From: Hyphomicrobiales bacterium
GTDB taxonomy: Bacteria > Pseudomonadota > Alphaproteobacteria > Rhizobiales > HXMU1428-3
DNA length: 13,629 nucleotides
Assembly: GCA_021775385.1 (NCBI GenBank)
Contig: JAJFHW010000137.1
Location: 1 to 13,629, forward strand
Reading direction: 5' to 3'
Part shown: positions 2,884 to 9,231 of the stretch, piece by piece
Layout of the letters: each line of letters starts with the position of its first letter
How positions within the stretch are numbered: the stretch's first letter is position 1
The notes under the pieces: generated by a model
The model's database searches: none
Told to the model about the DNA's origin: nothing
The model's input: only the letters and a program-made list of their open reading frames with translations
Program-made: the position numbers and the translations under genes

Positions 2884-3993
2884 ATGCAAGAGCGGCGAAA
2901 ACTCTGCAATCTTGTATCATTGCAAGCACTAAAGGTCAACAGAGCAGTGTCAATAGCTAGAGAACCCTCATTTAGATTTGCCCCAAGCCCCAATGGCTTA
3001 CTCCATCTTGGGCACGCTTACTCAGCTATTTTAACCTATGAAATGGCTAAAAAGCATGTAGGAGAGCTCTATCTCCGTATTGAAGACATAGATGGAGCGC
3101 GGTCCCAAGAAAGCTTTAGTACAGCAATTATACGCGATTTACATTGGCTTGGGATTGAATGGCAAACCCCTGTGATTTACCAATCAGATCATTTTGAGAT
3201 CTATTCAGGTGCAATTCGGGATTTAATTGAGCTGGAGCTGCTCTATCCTTGTTTTGCAAGCCGCAAAGAAATCAAGCAAGCTTTAGAGAGAAATGAAACC
3301 ATCAGGCAAGACCCAGACGGTGCCCCCCTTTATCCAGCGCTCTACAAATATTATCCAAAAGCAAAGGCGGAAGAGCGCATCGCTTCTGGAGAACCTTTTG
3401 CACTAAGGCTTCATATGGATAAAGCGATCGATAGAGCTAAGCAGTTAAATAGTGACAGAGAAAAAAAGCTTGCCTATCAAGCAATCACCATCGATTGCTT
3501 GATAGGCAATGAAGGGGACACTCCTGGTAGCGTAGTGAGCAATCGAAGGGATACCCCCGGTTGCGTAGTGGGCAATCGAAGGGATTCCCCCGGTTGCGTA
3601 GTGGGCAATCGAAGGGACAATAAAGAGCAGCAACTTTCATCCATCCCACTGGCAGCTGAGCGCTGGGGAGATGTCGTAATTAAGAGAAAAGATACCCCAA
3701 CAAGCTATCATCTATCTGTAGTTATTGATGATGACAAACTCGGTATAACTCATATTTGCCGCGGAAAAGATTTAGAGGCTGCCACAGATATCCATCGAAT
3801 TTTACAGATAAACCTAGGTCTTGCTCAGCCGATTTATCATCATCATGATTTGGTTCTTTATAATAATGATAAGCTTTCAAAATCCAAAGGCCATCCAAGT
3901 CTTTTTGAATTAAGAGAAAATGGTGTAAATCCATTAGATATTTACAAAAGCGCTTTAATAGGGCCTTCAGAGTTAAGTAAATATTTACCCTAA
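2884..3993 (+). CDS. gluQRS: glutamyl-Q tRNA(Asp) synthetase with an in-frame repeat insertion
   Basis: GluQRS is a truncated GluRS paralogue that activates glutamate and attaches it to queuosine at the tRNA(Asp) wobble position. The class I catalytic fold is clear: RFAPSPNGLLHLGH (HIGH motif at residues 41-44), LRIEDIDGAR, DPDGAPLYP, RWGDVVIKRKDTPTSYHL and KLSKS (330-334). The anticodon-binding domain is absent, as expected. Residues 196-246 are extra compared with the family: four 11-residue repeats (GCVVGNRRDTP type) encoded by 33-bp DNA repeats, which brings the protein to 369 residues against roughly 300. The usual zinc site also looks lost: only C123 remains where CxC is expected (C-F-A), and the later Cys is replaced in PALY. 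A GTG at 2947 (residue 22), with AAAGG about 10 nt upstream, gives an N-terminus closer to the family and may be the true start. Confidence 0.93.
   Translation: MQERRKLCNLVSLQALKVNRAVSIAREPSFRFAPSPNGLLHLGHAYSAILTYEMAKKHVGELYLRIEDIDGARSQESFSTAIIRDLHWLGIEWQTPVIYQSDHFEIYSGAIRDLIELELLYPCFASRKEIKQALERNETIRQDPDGAPLYPALYKYYPKAKAEERIASGEPFALRLHMDKAIDRAKQLNSDREKKLAYQAITIDCLIGNEGDTPGSVVSNRRDTPGCVVGNRRDSPGCVVGNRRDNKEQQLSSIPLAAERWGDVVIKRKDTPTSYHLSVVIDDDKLGITHICRGKDLEAATDIHRILQINLGLAQPIYHHHDLVLYNNDKLSKSKGHPSLFELRENGVNPLDIYKSALIGPSELSKYLP
3470..3618 (+). repeat. four 33-bp hairpin repeats inside gluQRS, led by a 17-bp stem
   Basis: Four tandem units start at 3493, 3526, 3559 and 3592, each exactly 33 bp, so they add 11 codons each and keep the frame. 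Each has a 5-nt arm, a 7-nt loop and a second arm followed by (C)GAAGG: ATTGC/GCAAT, GTAGC/GCAAT, then GTTGC/GCAAT twice. Pairing is perfect in the first, has one G-T pair in the last two and is weak in the second. The first unit also belongs to a large perfect inverted repeat, with 3470-3486 pairing to 3493-3509 around ACCATC. The unit is clearly related to the arrays at 8704-8863 and 9008-9190, sharing the period, the TAGTGGGCA core and the GAAG after the hairpin. Confidence 0.85.
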
Positions 3994-7142: not shown

Positions 7143-8714
7143 ATGTATGCTGAAGTGAAGACAGTTGCCTTTATCGGGGTTGAAGCTAAGCCAATAGACG
7201 TGCAGGTTCAAGTCGCTTCAGGTCTCCCAGCCTTTAACATTGTAGGCCTTCCAGACAAAGCCGTTGCAGAAAGCCGTGAGCGTGTGAGGGCGGCGTTAAA
7301 TGCGCTGGGGCTTGGACTGCCACCAAAAAGAATTACAGTGAACTTAGCCCCTGCTGATGTGCCCAAATATGGCTCCCATTATGATCTTCCAATTGTATTA
7401 GGTCTCATGGCTGCAACTGACGCTATATCAAAAGACCCCTTGGCCAGATATCTGGTTTTAGGTGAGCTTGCCCTTGATGGAGGAATTAGTTCTGTTGTAG
7501 GTGCGTTGCCAGCATCAATCAGTGCAAATAGGTTAAACCTCGGTCTTATTTGTCCATCTGCTTGTGGGCCGGAAGCCGCTTGGGCAGCTGAGGATATGGA
7601 CATATTAGCGCCCAAACATTTACTAAGCCTGATCAATCATTTCAAAGGAACGCAAGTTTTAAGTCCGCCAAAGCCAAAAATGAATACCATTGCCTCATCA
7701 GATGAAGGCAAGCCAGATATGGCTGATATCAAAGGCCAGGAAGGCGCAAAGCGGTGTATGGAGATTGCAGCGGCCGGCGGTCATAATTTGCTTATGTCAG
7801 GTCCGCCAGGTGCTGGTAAAACCATGCTGGCGTCTCGCTTGCCAACAATCTTGCCCCCCCTCTCTCCAGAAGAAATGCTTGAGGTCTCTATGATTCAAAG
7901 CTTGGCCGGTGAGTTAAGTGGCGGTGAATTAAAACAAGCGCGCCCCTTTAGAGCGCCGCATCACTCGGCCACAATGGCAGCGTTAGTTGGTGGCGGTAGT
8001 AAGCCAAAACCAGGCGAAGTTGCTTTAGCCCATCATGGTGTCTTATTTCTTGATGAGCTTCCTGAGTTTACAGCTCAAGTTCTTGATAGTTTGCGCCAGC
8101 CGCTTGAATCTGGTGAAACATCAATTGCTAGAGCCAATCACCGCATTACATATCCTTCAAAAATTCAGCTGATCGCTGCCATGAACCCGTGCCGGTGTGG
8201 CAAAGCCTTTGAGCCAGGCTTTGCGTGTTCCAGAGGTAGTAATTGCGCTGAGCGCTATCAATCTCGAATTTCAGGTCCCTTGTTAGATCGAATAGATTTG
8301 CAAATTGAAGTCCCAGCTGTATCGGCACTTGATCTCCTTGATGAAAGCCCCGTTGAAACAAGTTCCGAGATAAGAAAGCGCGTGACTATGGCACGGTTAA
8401 TTCAACGAGAGAGATTTGATAAATTAAACGGCAGGGCAGAATTGTTGAACGCCACCTGTTCCCCCCCTCTCTTAGAGCAAATTGCAGCACCGGATGAATT
8501 AGGTAAAAAGCTGCTAAAAGAAGCGGCGATAAAGCTTAAACTTTCAGCAAGAGGGTTCCATAAAGCTTTAAGAGTTGCGCGAACTTTAGCTGATCTTGAA
8601 AATTGTGAAAGAGTGAACCGGGCTCATATAGCTGAAGCCTTATCTTATCGCGGAAATAAAGCAGAAAACACTCAGCCTAAAATCACTAGAAATAACCAAA
8701 TAAGCGGATACTAG
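7143..8714 (+). CDS. comM: YifB/ComM family AAA+ ATPase (Mg chelatase-like)
   Basis: ComM is a hexameric AAA+ helicase that promotes branch migration during integration of transforming DNA; this is the role of the characterised family member. The N-terminal ChlI-like domain (1-170) opens with the diagnostic ASGLPAFNIVGLPDKAVAESR. The AAA+ core has Walker A GPPGAGKT (220-227), Walker B VLFLDE (300-305), and a four-Cys cluster (C350, C352, C362, C368) beside SGPLLDRIDL. The C-terminal domain has LSARGFHKALRVARTLADL and RAHIAEALSYR. The length of 523 is slightly above the usual 500-515. ATG at 7143 has a good site (AAGGGG, 8 nt). The last codons and the stop (GGA TAC TAG) lie inside the first unit of a 33-bp hairpin array, so the tail after about residue 505 is partly repeat-derived. 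Confidence 0.95.
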   Translation: MYAEVKTVAFIGVEAKPIDVQVQVASGLPAFNIVGLPDKAVAESRERVRAALNALGLGLPPKRITVNLAPADVPKYGSHYDLPIVLGLMAATDAISKDPLARYLVLGELALDGGISSVVGALPASISANRLNLGLICPSACGPEAAWAAEDMDILAPKHLLSLINHFKGTQVLSPPKPKMNTIASSDEGKPDMADIKGQEGAKRCMEIAAAGGHNLLMSGPPGAGKTMLASRLPTILPPLSPEEMLEVSMIQSLAGELSGGELKQARPFRAPHHSATMAALVGGGSKPKPGEVALAHHGVLFLDELPEFTAQVLDSLRQPLESGETSIARANHRITYPSKIQLIAAMNPCRCGKAFEPGFACSRGSNCAERYQSRISGPLLDRIDLQIEVPAVSALDLLDESPVETSSEIRKRVTMARLIQRERFDKLNGRAELLNATCSPPLLEQIAAPDELGKKLLKEAAIKLKLSARGFHKALRVARTLADLENCERVNRAHIAEALSYRGNKAENTQPKITRNNQISGY

Positions 8715-8863
8715 AGGGTGTCTCAAGTAAGAAAATGCGGATACTAGCAGGTATCTCAAGCAAAGAAATGCGGATGCTAGTGGGCATCTGAAGCACAGAA
8801 ATGCGGATGCTAGTGGGCATCTGAAGCACAGATATGCGGATGCTAGTGGGCATCTGAAGCACA
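8704..8863 (+). repeat. array 1: five 33-bp hairpin units over the comM stop
   Basis: Left stem arms begin at 8707, 8740, 8773, 8806 and 8839, an exact 33-bp period. Arms and loops are: GATAC-TAGAGG-GTGTC, GATAC-TAGCAG-GTATC, then GATGC-TAGTGG-GCATC three times. Each is preceded by GCG and followed by TCAAG or TGAAG plus an A-rich spacer. Both arms change together (GATAC/GTATC against GATGC/GCATC), so the pairing is preserved. Unit 1 has one G-T pair and contains the comM stop codon. There is no T-tract. The units are too similar, and the spacers too short, for CRISPR. The open frames seen across the array follow from a period divisible by three and are not genes. Confidence 0.92.
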
Positions 8864-9007
8864 AAAATGAGCATTTTAGAACCATTTCAGCAAATTTCAT
8901 CTAGTTAGATAAAATTTGAATTATTATTCTAAGCCTTTCTCAAATCAATTCTGATTAACTAAAACTCGAGCATATTGTTTTAAGTGGATACTCCTCCCAG
9001 TTGCTTG
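8864..9007. other. spacer between the two arrays
   Basis: An AT-rich stretch of 144 bases with no gene. AGTGGATACTC at 8983-8993 recurs at 5562-5572, just after the soluble hybrid kinase stop, and resembles the start of a GATAC-type repeat unit, so both may be decayed copies. If the downstream kinase has its own promoter it may lie here, but I see no good -35/-10 pair. Confidence 0.4.
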
Positions 9008-9190
9008 TGCGGATGCTAGTGGGCATCTGAAGCAAAGATCTGCGGATGCTAGTGGGCATCTGAAGCAAAGATCTGCGGATGCTAATTAGCATCTGAAGCA
9101 AAGATTTGCGGATGCTGGTGGGCATCTGAAGCAAAAAAATGGGAACTGAGGAGCGTTCGCGACGGTTGCAAGTGGGCAACTGAAGGAGCG
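9008..9190 (+). repeat. array 2: four 33-bp hairpin units plus one diverged unit
   Basis: Left arms begin at 9012, 9045, 9078 and 9111 (33-bp period). All four are GATGC/GCATC, with loops TAGTGG, TAGTGG, TAATTA and TGGTGG, so the stems stay fixed while the loops drift. All are followed by TGAAGCA. A fifth hairpin out of phase, GTTGC 9165-9169 / GCAAC 9176-9180 with loop AAGTGG and then TGAAGG, links this array to the gluQRS repeats, which use GTTGC arms and GAAGG. The fifth unit sits inside an outer inverted repeat, GGAACT 9142-9147 and AGTTCC 9196-9201, and ACTGAGGAGCGTT (9146) is near-repeated at 9179. The array ends 42 bases before the TTG start of the hybrid kinase. Confidence 0.92.
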
Positions 9191-9231
9191 TTAAAAGTTC
9201 CAAAATGCTCTCATGCGGCAGTTAATTAAGA

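Follow-up and report, generated by a model that had tools for sequence, protein, structure and literature searches.

A hairpin repeat family with near-fixed orientation in a marine alphaproteobacterium and its relatives, possibly spreading as single-stranded DNA at replication forks

What are the short tandem hairpins that stand at three places of a single stretch of DNA from a marine alphaproteobacterium, and how did they get there? The stretch, called the window in the following, comprises 13,629 bp (contig C43 of the draft genome G000, which has 2.88 Mb in 400 contigs and is 79% complete). An original prediction made from the letters of the window had described fourteen hairpin units at three places. 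All of them are present with the claimed arms and loops, although one array (array C, 3489-3620) lies outside the interval 8704..9190 that the prediction named. The observation is confirmed, and its interpretation is partly supported. The repeat, termed F1 here, is a large dispersed family with hundreds of copies across the genome and its relatives. Our preferred reading, towards which the evidence tips to a small degree, is that F1 is a mobile hairpin resembling repetitive extragenic palindromic (REP) sequences and spreading as single-stranded DNA at replication forks.

An F1 unit has 33 to about 42 nt and consists of an outer stem of mostly 3-5 bp, an inner stem of 5-6 bp, a loop of 6-7 nt that mostly has GTGG at its end, and a GAA bulge on the 3' side, after which the outer stem closes. 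TGC-GGATGC-TAGTGG-GCATCT-GAA-GCA is an example of a complete unit. Parsing of stems and foot took in 166 of 193 units from the genomes G002 and G003, and the loop has 6-7 nt in 162 of these. The stretches for the unit analyses had been picked for holding units, regardless of strand. A CACTA-type tail frequently follows the unit; a pseudoknot between loop and tail (GTGG with CCAC), considered by eye, was dropped given that the tail is not conserved. The layout described earlier captured the inner hairpin but overlooked the other half of the element, which is longer and has an outer stem beyond the 3' GAA, and its (T)GAAG after the second arm is found as GAAG except in the first two units, which have CAAG.

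The covariation that had been claimed for the arms is real. The covariance model R1 was built from an alignment of 40 units of G000 (alignment A3; 37 of 47 collected units and three others), which includes seven of the fourteen window units (A3, A5, B1, B4, B5, C3, and C4). In this alignment 92.1% of the cells are paired, compared to 80.3% after shuffling and 24-43% when slid. Because these 40 units had been picked with a paired inner stem, the test was repeated with units for whose choice only the inner arms, the loop length, and the bulge counted. The outer stem played no part in picking these 224 distinct units of the genus, and its first three pairs are all formed in 162 of them, compared to a mean of 61.4 (highest 78) with permuted right halves. 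Among the twenty commonest triplets the fully paired ones are TGC/GCA (54 units), CGC/GCG (47), GCC/GGC (14), CCC/GGG (13), GGC/GCC (11), ACC/GGT (4), AGC/GCT (3), CAC/GTG (3), and TAC/GTA (2). The GAC/GGA type, a C-G pair next to two G-A mismatches, accounts for 16 units (7%). The variable pair of the inner stem is A-T in 101 units, T-A in 114, and mismatched in nine. A count of G-T versus A-C mismatches, made to tell which strand folds, gives 37 versus 18 in the inner and 35 versus 58 in the outer stem; overlapping loci (L003-L007) were excluded from the unit counts in the outer-stem and mismatch tests. In 14 distinct units of a second bacterial family the outer four pairs are invariant and therefore uninformative on covariation. 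The prediction had itself offered the gene conversion of a few variants as an objection. At least nine fully paired versions of the outer stem are too many for this, although this last step is a matter of judgement.

The proposal to look for further copies was equally borne out. With up to three mismatches TAGTGGGCATCTGAAG matches G000 at 304 positions (177+127), compared to 15 (8+7) for the reversed control pattern. A search with R1 covered eight genomes of the genus, all of which have F1, and 33 others, which together gave a single match. The R1 matches amount to at least 3 in G001, 27 in G005, 39 in G004, 136 in G007, 166 in G006, 168 in both G003 and G000, and 177 in G002, all being lower bounds since only the best 150 candidates were scored per genome (the best 17 in the order-wide search). 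Presence and copy number are thus species-specific, with G001 being 95% and G002 99% complete. Across 397 genomes of the order, 21 contain F1 at E <= 1e-4, namely the eight of the genus, 12 of one other family, and one outside both groups, which has just one match. In this second family most F1 is found in G343, G256, and G390. Their stretches have 62-68% G+C, arrays with a period of 33-40 bp, and a unit (GCGC-GGATGC-nnGTGG-GCATCC-GAA-GCGC) that is much as in the genus.

The direction of F1 along the chromosome is the unexpected property. All but one of 25 units share a strand in G003:C5 (1-200 kb), as do all 42 in G002:C5 (60-260 kb). Of the 335 matches in G002 and G003, 150 are listed, distributed over 25 contigs, and 148 of these are on the majority strand of the respective contig. 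Nineteen of these contigs have three or more listed matches (majority + in 11, - in 8), and one contig of 1.16 Mb has 24 matches versus one on the other strand. In G004 the majority strand holds 29 of the 31 listed matches (39 in all). If strands are classified by having less G than C at third codon positions, scored on the stretches holding units, the C-rich strand contains 187 of 193 units in G002 and G003, 73 of 78 units (18 of 21 stretches) in G000, 49 of 54 in G007, and 18 of 18 in G004. Two of the three exceptional stretches of G000 have near-zero skew. Thus, the orientation of F1 is near-fixed on the C-rich strand in these five genomes of the genus. A strand switch in G007:C45 was considered as an origin or terminus and ruled out, as the GC3 skew keeps its sign there, so that the three + units are local exceptions. 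By the usual convention the C-rich strand is the strand made discontinuously. Therefore, F1 would be on what is presumably the lagging strand, and its complement on the lagging-strand template.

Could transcription or a chromosomal function account for this orientation instead? Structured RNA signals, such as 3'UTR stabilisers or protein-binding hairpins selected on the transcript, would fit the strong covariation and the conserved letters of loop and bulge. In line with this, 179 of the 193 units are outside open reading frames (ORFs, here mechanical proxies of at least 110 codons), and the window species, G003, and G002 share the position of the copy at the 3' end of comM. The other 14 of the 193 units lie within ORF proxies, 13 of them antisense to the ORF; such ORFs may be spurious and read from the repeats. 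The ORFs flanking a unit, as seen from the unit, are ++ in 66 cases, -- in 47, +- in 27, and -+ in 25, and the direction of the neighbouring genes is therefore no explanation for the orientation. Given an orientation independent of transcription, with 47 of 165 units standing antisense to the ORFs on either side, copy numbers from 3 to 177 within one genus (lower bounds), and units lying within other repeats, we regard RNA signals as quite unlikely. The near-absolute orientation relative to GC skew would also suit an oriented chromosome signal kept one way by selection, like KOPS (FtsK-orienting polar sequences) or Chi. Such signals are short unstructured words, whereas the arms of F1 vary and yet stay paired. 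In addition, tandem arrays, nesting, and the near absence in the 95% complete G001 (at least three matches) do not suit an essential signal, and such a signal has in our view the smallest chance among the alternatives.

A further property is nesting. In 15 of 134 clusters a host F1 is split by another unit, and in all 15 the split point is in the loop of the host. Perfect stems of at least 6 bp span the unit in 20 of the 134 clusters, compared to 5.8 with permutation (highest 16 of 2000 permutations). Cluster sets comprised 106 clusters as printed, 134 in the F1-in-F1 and stem tests, and 135 in an energy test, clusters at locus ends being excluded. F1 is also found within another dispersed repeat, F2, which has about 105-125 nt and several strongly covarying hairpins in stretches of G002 and G003 (for example L178:6203-6327 on the - and L191:18221-18345 on the + strand). 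F2 has the conserved words GAAGAAGGAG, GGACATG, and GCCGTGAGAGA, and 22 aligned copies show double changes at 17 of 30 predicted pairs. The F1 majority strand contains 56 of 61 F2 copies with both ends and 89 of 107 occurrences of the end motif alone (one mismatch allowed). In 23 of 193 units an F2 linker precedes and an F2 end follows, with F1 being placed within F2 hairpin loops, and an F2 end is present within 60 nt after the unit in 29 of 193 (7 for the reversed motif). Composites of F2 and F1 with identical junction recur in L182, L183, L184, L200, L201, and G000 (L008, L019, and L020). A third repeat, F3 (AAGATCAGCCCGAACGGAGC...GCTGATCGCA), is in the P4 loop of F2 in L182 (G002:C1:120001-140000, near 8180-8380) and in L188 (near 14700-14890). 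Near 15780-15940 of L173 two units are found within a larger hairpin and adjoin a CCTAAAAGTGGATACCGGTTTTAGG-type palindrome, which we take to be a common Rhizobiales repeat. The Rfam covariance models gave no match in the window at gathering, nor any at E <= 1 in the stretches L162 and L172 with their F1 and F2 copies; in six stretches including L172 only four tRNAs and one TPP (thiamine pyrophosphate) riboswitch were found at gathering.

The shared orientation relative to replication suggests that F1 multiplies through single-stranded DNA at the fork. According to our preferred reading, new copies would enter the exposed lagging-strand template as single-stranded DNA, which would fix their orientation. 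Hairpin loops in this template would be favoured entry sites, and the arrays would then be enlarged by local duplication. A more far-reaching version, which we consider doubtful at present, is that a single-strand DNA insertion pathway with neither a Y1 transposase nor a reverse transcriptase inserts the unrelated families F1, F2, and F3 preferentially into hairpin loops of the lagging-strand template, producing both the nesting and the one direction per replichore.

Several points weigh against the spread at forks. The lagging strand was assigned from GC skew with no mapped origin, and no insertion was caught between strains. In the second family, where six 10-kb stretches of high-GC genomes were scored, the C-rich strand has nine units and the G-rich strand 15 (9 versus 6 in G343, 0 versus 3 in G256, and 0 versus 6 in G390). 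As units have halves in common, permuted right flanks still give on average 6.8 F1-in-F1 splits (highest 11). Few perfect stems spanning a unit reach 7 bp or more (5 of 134 versus 1.8, highest 7), and the complementarity of the flanks in the energy test is barely above chance, 135 of 10000 permutations being as low for 135 clusters. Most isolated units therefore are in no recognisable hairpin loop, and the idea that all of them reside in hidden loops found weak support in the energy and stem tests. Finally, no enzyme was found for F1, and G003 has two genes that resemble REP-associated tyrosine transposases (RAYTs).

These two genes, in L199 (G003:C1) at 11363-17162, match the NCBIfam model of the REP-associated tyrosine transposase with 80.4 and 83 bits, just above the cut-off of 80. 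They are flanked by ATTACGGTGACAGT-type repeats, which are unlike F1, and F1 is not beside either of them. Y1_Tnp was not found in seven of the eight genomes of the genus, including G000 and G002, nor in 10 of 13 other genomes bearing F1, the remaining three containing it. The suggestion that a RAYT (Y1) gene might track the repeats is therefore not upheld. A reverse transcriptase (RVT_1, PF00078) was not found in six of the eight genomes, including G000, G002, and G003, but is present in G004 and G006. The 99% complete G002 has at least 169 matches at E <= 1e-4 and yet neither Y1/RAYT nor reverse transcriptase was found in it, so that something other than these may move F1, or else a RAYT has since been lost. 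Both enzymes were rejected as drivers for most genomes searched. F1 could still represent ordinary REPs once moved by a RAYT (a Y1 HUH transposase) that most species have since lost. Y1 elements are known to insert single-stranded into the lagging-strand template (PMC6006769), and the matches in G003 and the Y1 genes of the three other genomes are in agreement with this. We nevertheless consider such a loss unlikely, as Y1 is missing from the search results of nearly the whole genus including G002, which is as rich in F1 as G003, as the genes of G003 adjoin other repeats, and as no more than 24 of 130 units have the GT[AG]G foot.

How does F1 relate to known repeats? With 33 nt the unit would be short for an integron attC site, which goes with an integron integrase and paired core sites. 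Elements carried by a reverse transcriptase, such as group II introns and retrons, do not fit a gene found in only two of the eight genomes. The REPIN arrangement of two inverted units is not seen, nearly all units of a contig being on one strand. The short dispersed repeats (SDR) of Nostoc are reportedly hairpin repeats of 21-27 nt with compensatory changes that are nested in other repeats by a mechanism not known (Elhai et al. 2008); they differ from F1 in host, sequence, and size. By loose standards (imperfect palindromes of 20-40 bp, high copy number, mostly intergenic) F1 is REP-like, and the earlier remark that it recalls REPs in spirit holds to this extent. As defined in PMC3733652 and PMC6006769, GTAG REPs are imperfect hairpins of 20-40 nt, intergenic and multicopy, some being bulged, tandem, or in-frame within ORFs, all of which F1 shares. 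Unlike these REPs with their RAYT/TnpA-REP, F1 has no conserved GT[AG]G 5' foot (found, on the complementary strand, in 24 of the 130 units whose outer stem has 2 bp or more, for which reason the canonical REP reading of this strand was dropped), no RAYT gene found with F1 at its flanks, a Y1 that is mostly not found, head-to-tail instead of inverted pairs, a near-absolute orientation, and loop nesting. The CGTC REPs are small alphaproteobacterial hairpins apparently without dedicated transposase, as F1 seems to be, but have stems of 8-9 bp, loops of 4-5 nt, and mostly head-head dimers (PMC3733652). F1 differs by its loops of 6-7 nt, GAA bulge, and same-strand neighbours in head-to-tail arrays, as judged by stem, loop, and arrangement of the units. 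By the features tested, F1 is a REP-like family outside the GTAG and CGTC superfamilies. IS200/IS605 elements resemble F1 in their strand-fixed insertion into the lagging-strand template at forks (PMC6006769), whereas F1 has no gene of its own, and most genomes searched gave no Y1 match. A partial precedent for the orientation are some tandem REP arrays of Pseudomonas fluorescens SBW25, which switch from forward to reverse between the two sides of the chromosome (PMC3116915). These arrays are few and large, whereas the orientation of F1 extends to single dispersed copies. No published description of F1, and none of loop nesting or of a near-absolute orientation among dispersed copies in REPs, was found in the open-licence literature as far as its text was accessible, and a word search in the REP survey PMC12306157 returned none of the words orientation, lagging, tandem, and nested.

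The arrays of the window, whose features are all on the + strand, give some indication of how F1 is gained and grows. Array A (8704-8868, five units) is at the 3' end of comM, whose stop codon TAG (8712-8714) is in the loop of unit A1. In the comM genes of G003 (L061) and G002 (L152) the stops TAG and TAA likewise are in the loop of a unit in the same place. A scan with a covariance model, as had been proposed, detects the family but not every unit. It does not report A1 (8704-8736, arms GATAC/GTGTC, CAAG replacing GAAG) at E <= 1, and finds A2 (8737-8769) with E 0.002, A3 (8770-8802) and A4 (8803-8835) with 3e-12, and A5 (8836-8868) with 1.7e-12. Array B (9009-9140) is ahead of a hybrid histidine kinase gene, and its units B1 (9009-9041), B2 (9042-9074), B3 (9075-9107, loop TAATTA), and B4 (9108-9140, loop TGGTGG) are all matched by R1. 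A fifth unit, B5 (9160-9191, E 3.2e-9), is of the GTTGC/GCAAC type, and its outer stem (CGAC/GGAGC) contains a tandem GA/GA mismatch. By eye, array B could be in the loop of a larger candidate hairpin formed by CTCCTCCCAGTTGC (8991-9004) and GGGAACTGAGGAG (9141-9153), the pairing being imperfect. Unit B4 contains GCTGGTGG across its loop, and GCTAGTGG is found in many units; the former has the letters of the Escherichia coli Chi site, probably by coincidence. Array C has four units within the gluQ-RS frame and is translated in frame. C1 (3489-3520) and C2 (3522-3554) are weak and detected only with E 0.086 and 0.42, respectively, while C3 (3555-3587) and C4 (3588-3620), both with the outer stem CCC/GGG, are matched by R1. 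The period of 33 bp holds within arrays A, B, and C but not from B4 to B5 (54). In four other species of the genus same-strand distances below 60 nt are 37-41 in 53 of 96 cases (range 32-59), and the period is thus a local and not a family property. Two side observations concern the remainder of the window: its left end (1-2400) has over 2 kb in which no ORF of more than 78 aa starts, and the DUF6653 protein has 91% identity to that of the metagenome-assembled genome (MAG) of Methyloligella sp. DHS20C07 and 81% to that of the Hyphomicrobiales bacterium HXMU1428-3 MAG, the closest relatives with a name that were found.

Array C is missing from the gluQ-RS of six other genomes of the genus (G002, G003, G004, and G007 directly, G006 and G005 through the records L062 and L065, which are equated with these genomes on account of identical BLAST figures). 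G001 showed no recognisable gluQ-RS. In the interval from comM to the kinase, units occur at both sites of arrays A and B in G003 and G002, and at the second site only in G006. The numbers of units in this interval differ among the genomes, and G003 and G002 have F2-type sequence there. The ungapped identity of units is 0.82 within and 0.58 between arrays, and 11 of 18 arrays with three or more units have a single spacing. The inherited comM sites, the alike units of each array, and the gain of array C together indicate that positions are partly inherited, that arrays grow locally, and that new sites are gained. The left edge of array C has 17 nt of resident gluQ-RS sequence (3470-3486), to which relatives have similar sequence, and then, at 3493-3509, the exact reverse complement of these 17 nt. 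This fold-back copy accounts for most of unit C1 and is absent from the aligned orthologues. It may be the sign of a strand that folded back on itself and served as a template in the course of the event. Could slippage, hairpin-templated correction, and gene conversion then have built the arrays and kept the stems paired without any mobility? The alike units within arrays and the fold-back of resident sequence would agree with such a scheme, but it accounts neither for the same unit at hundreds of places nor for the units in F2 loops and the recurrent composites of F2 and F1, and we therefore hold it to be very unlikely.

For the biology of the genus, the combination of near-absolute orientation and loop nesting provides a direct handle on the mechanism, because the fork, one strand, and the target structure are all indicated. 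In addition, F1 could mark the direction of replication in draft genomes of the genus.

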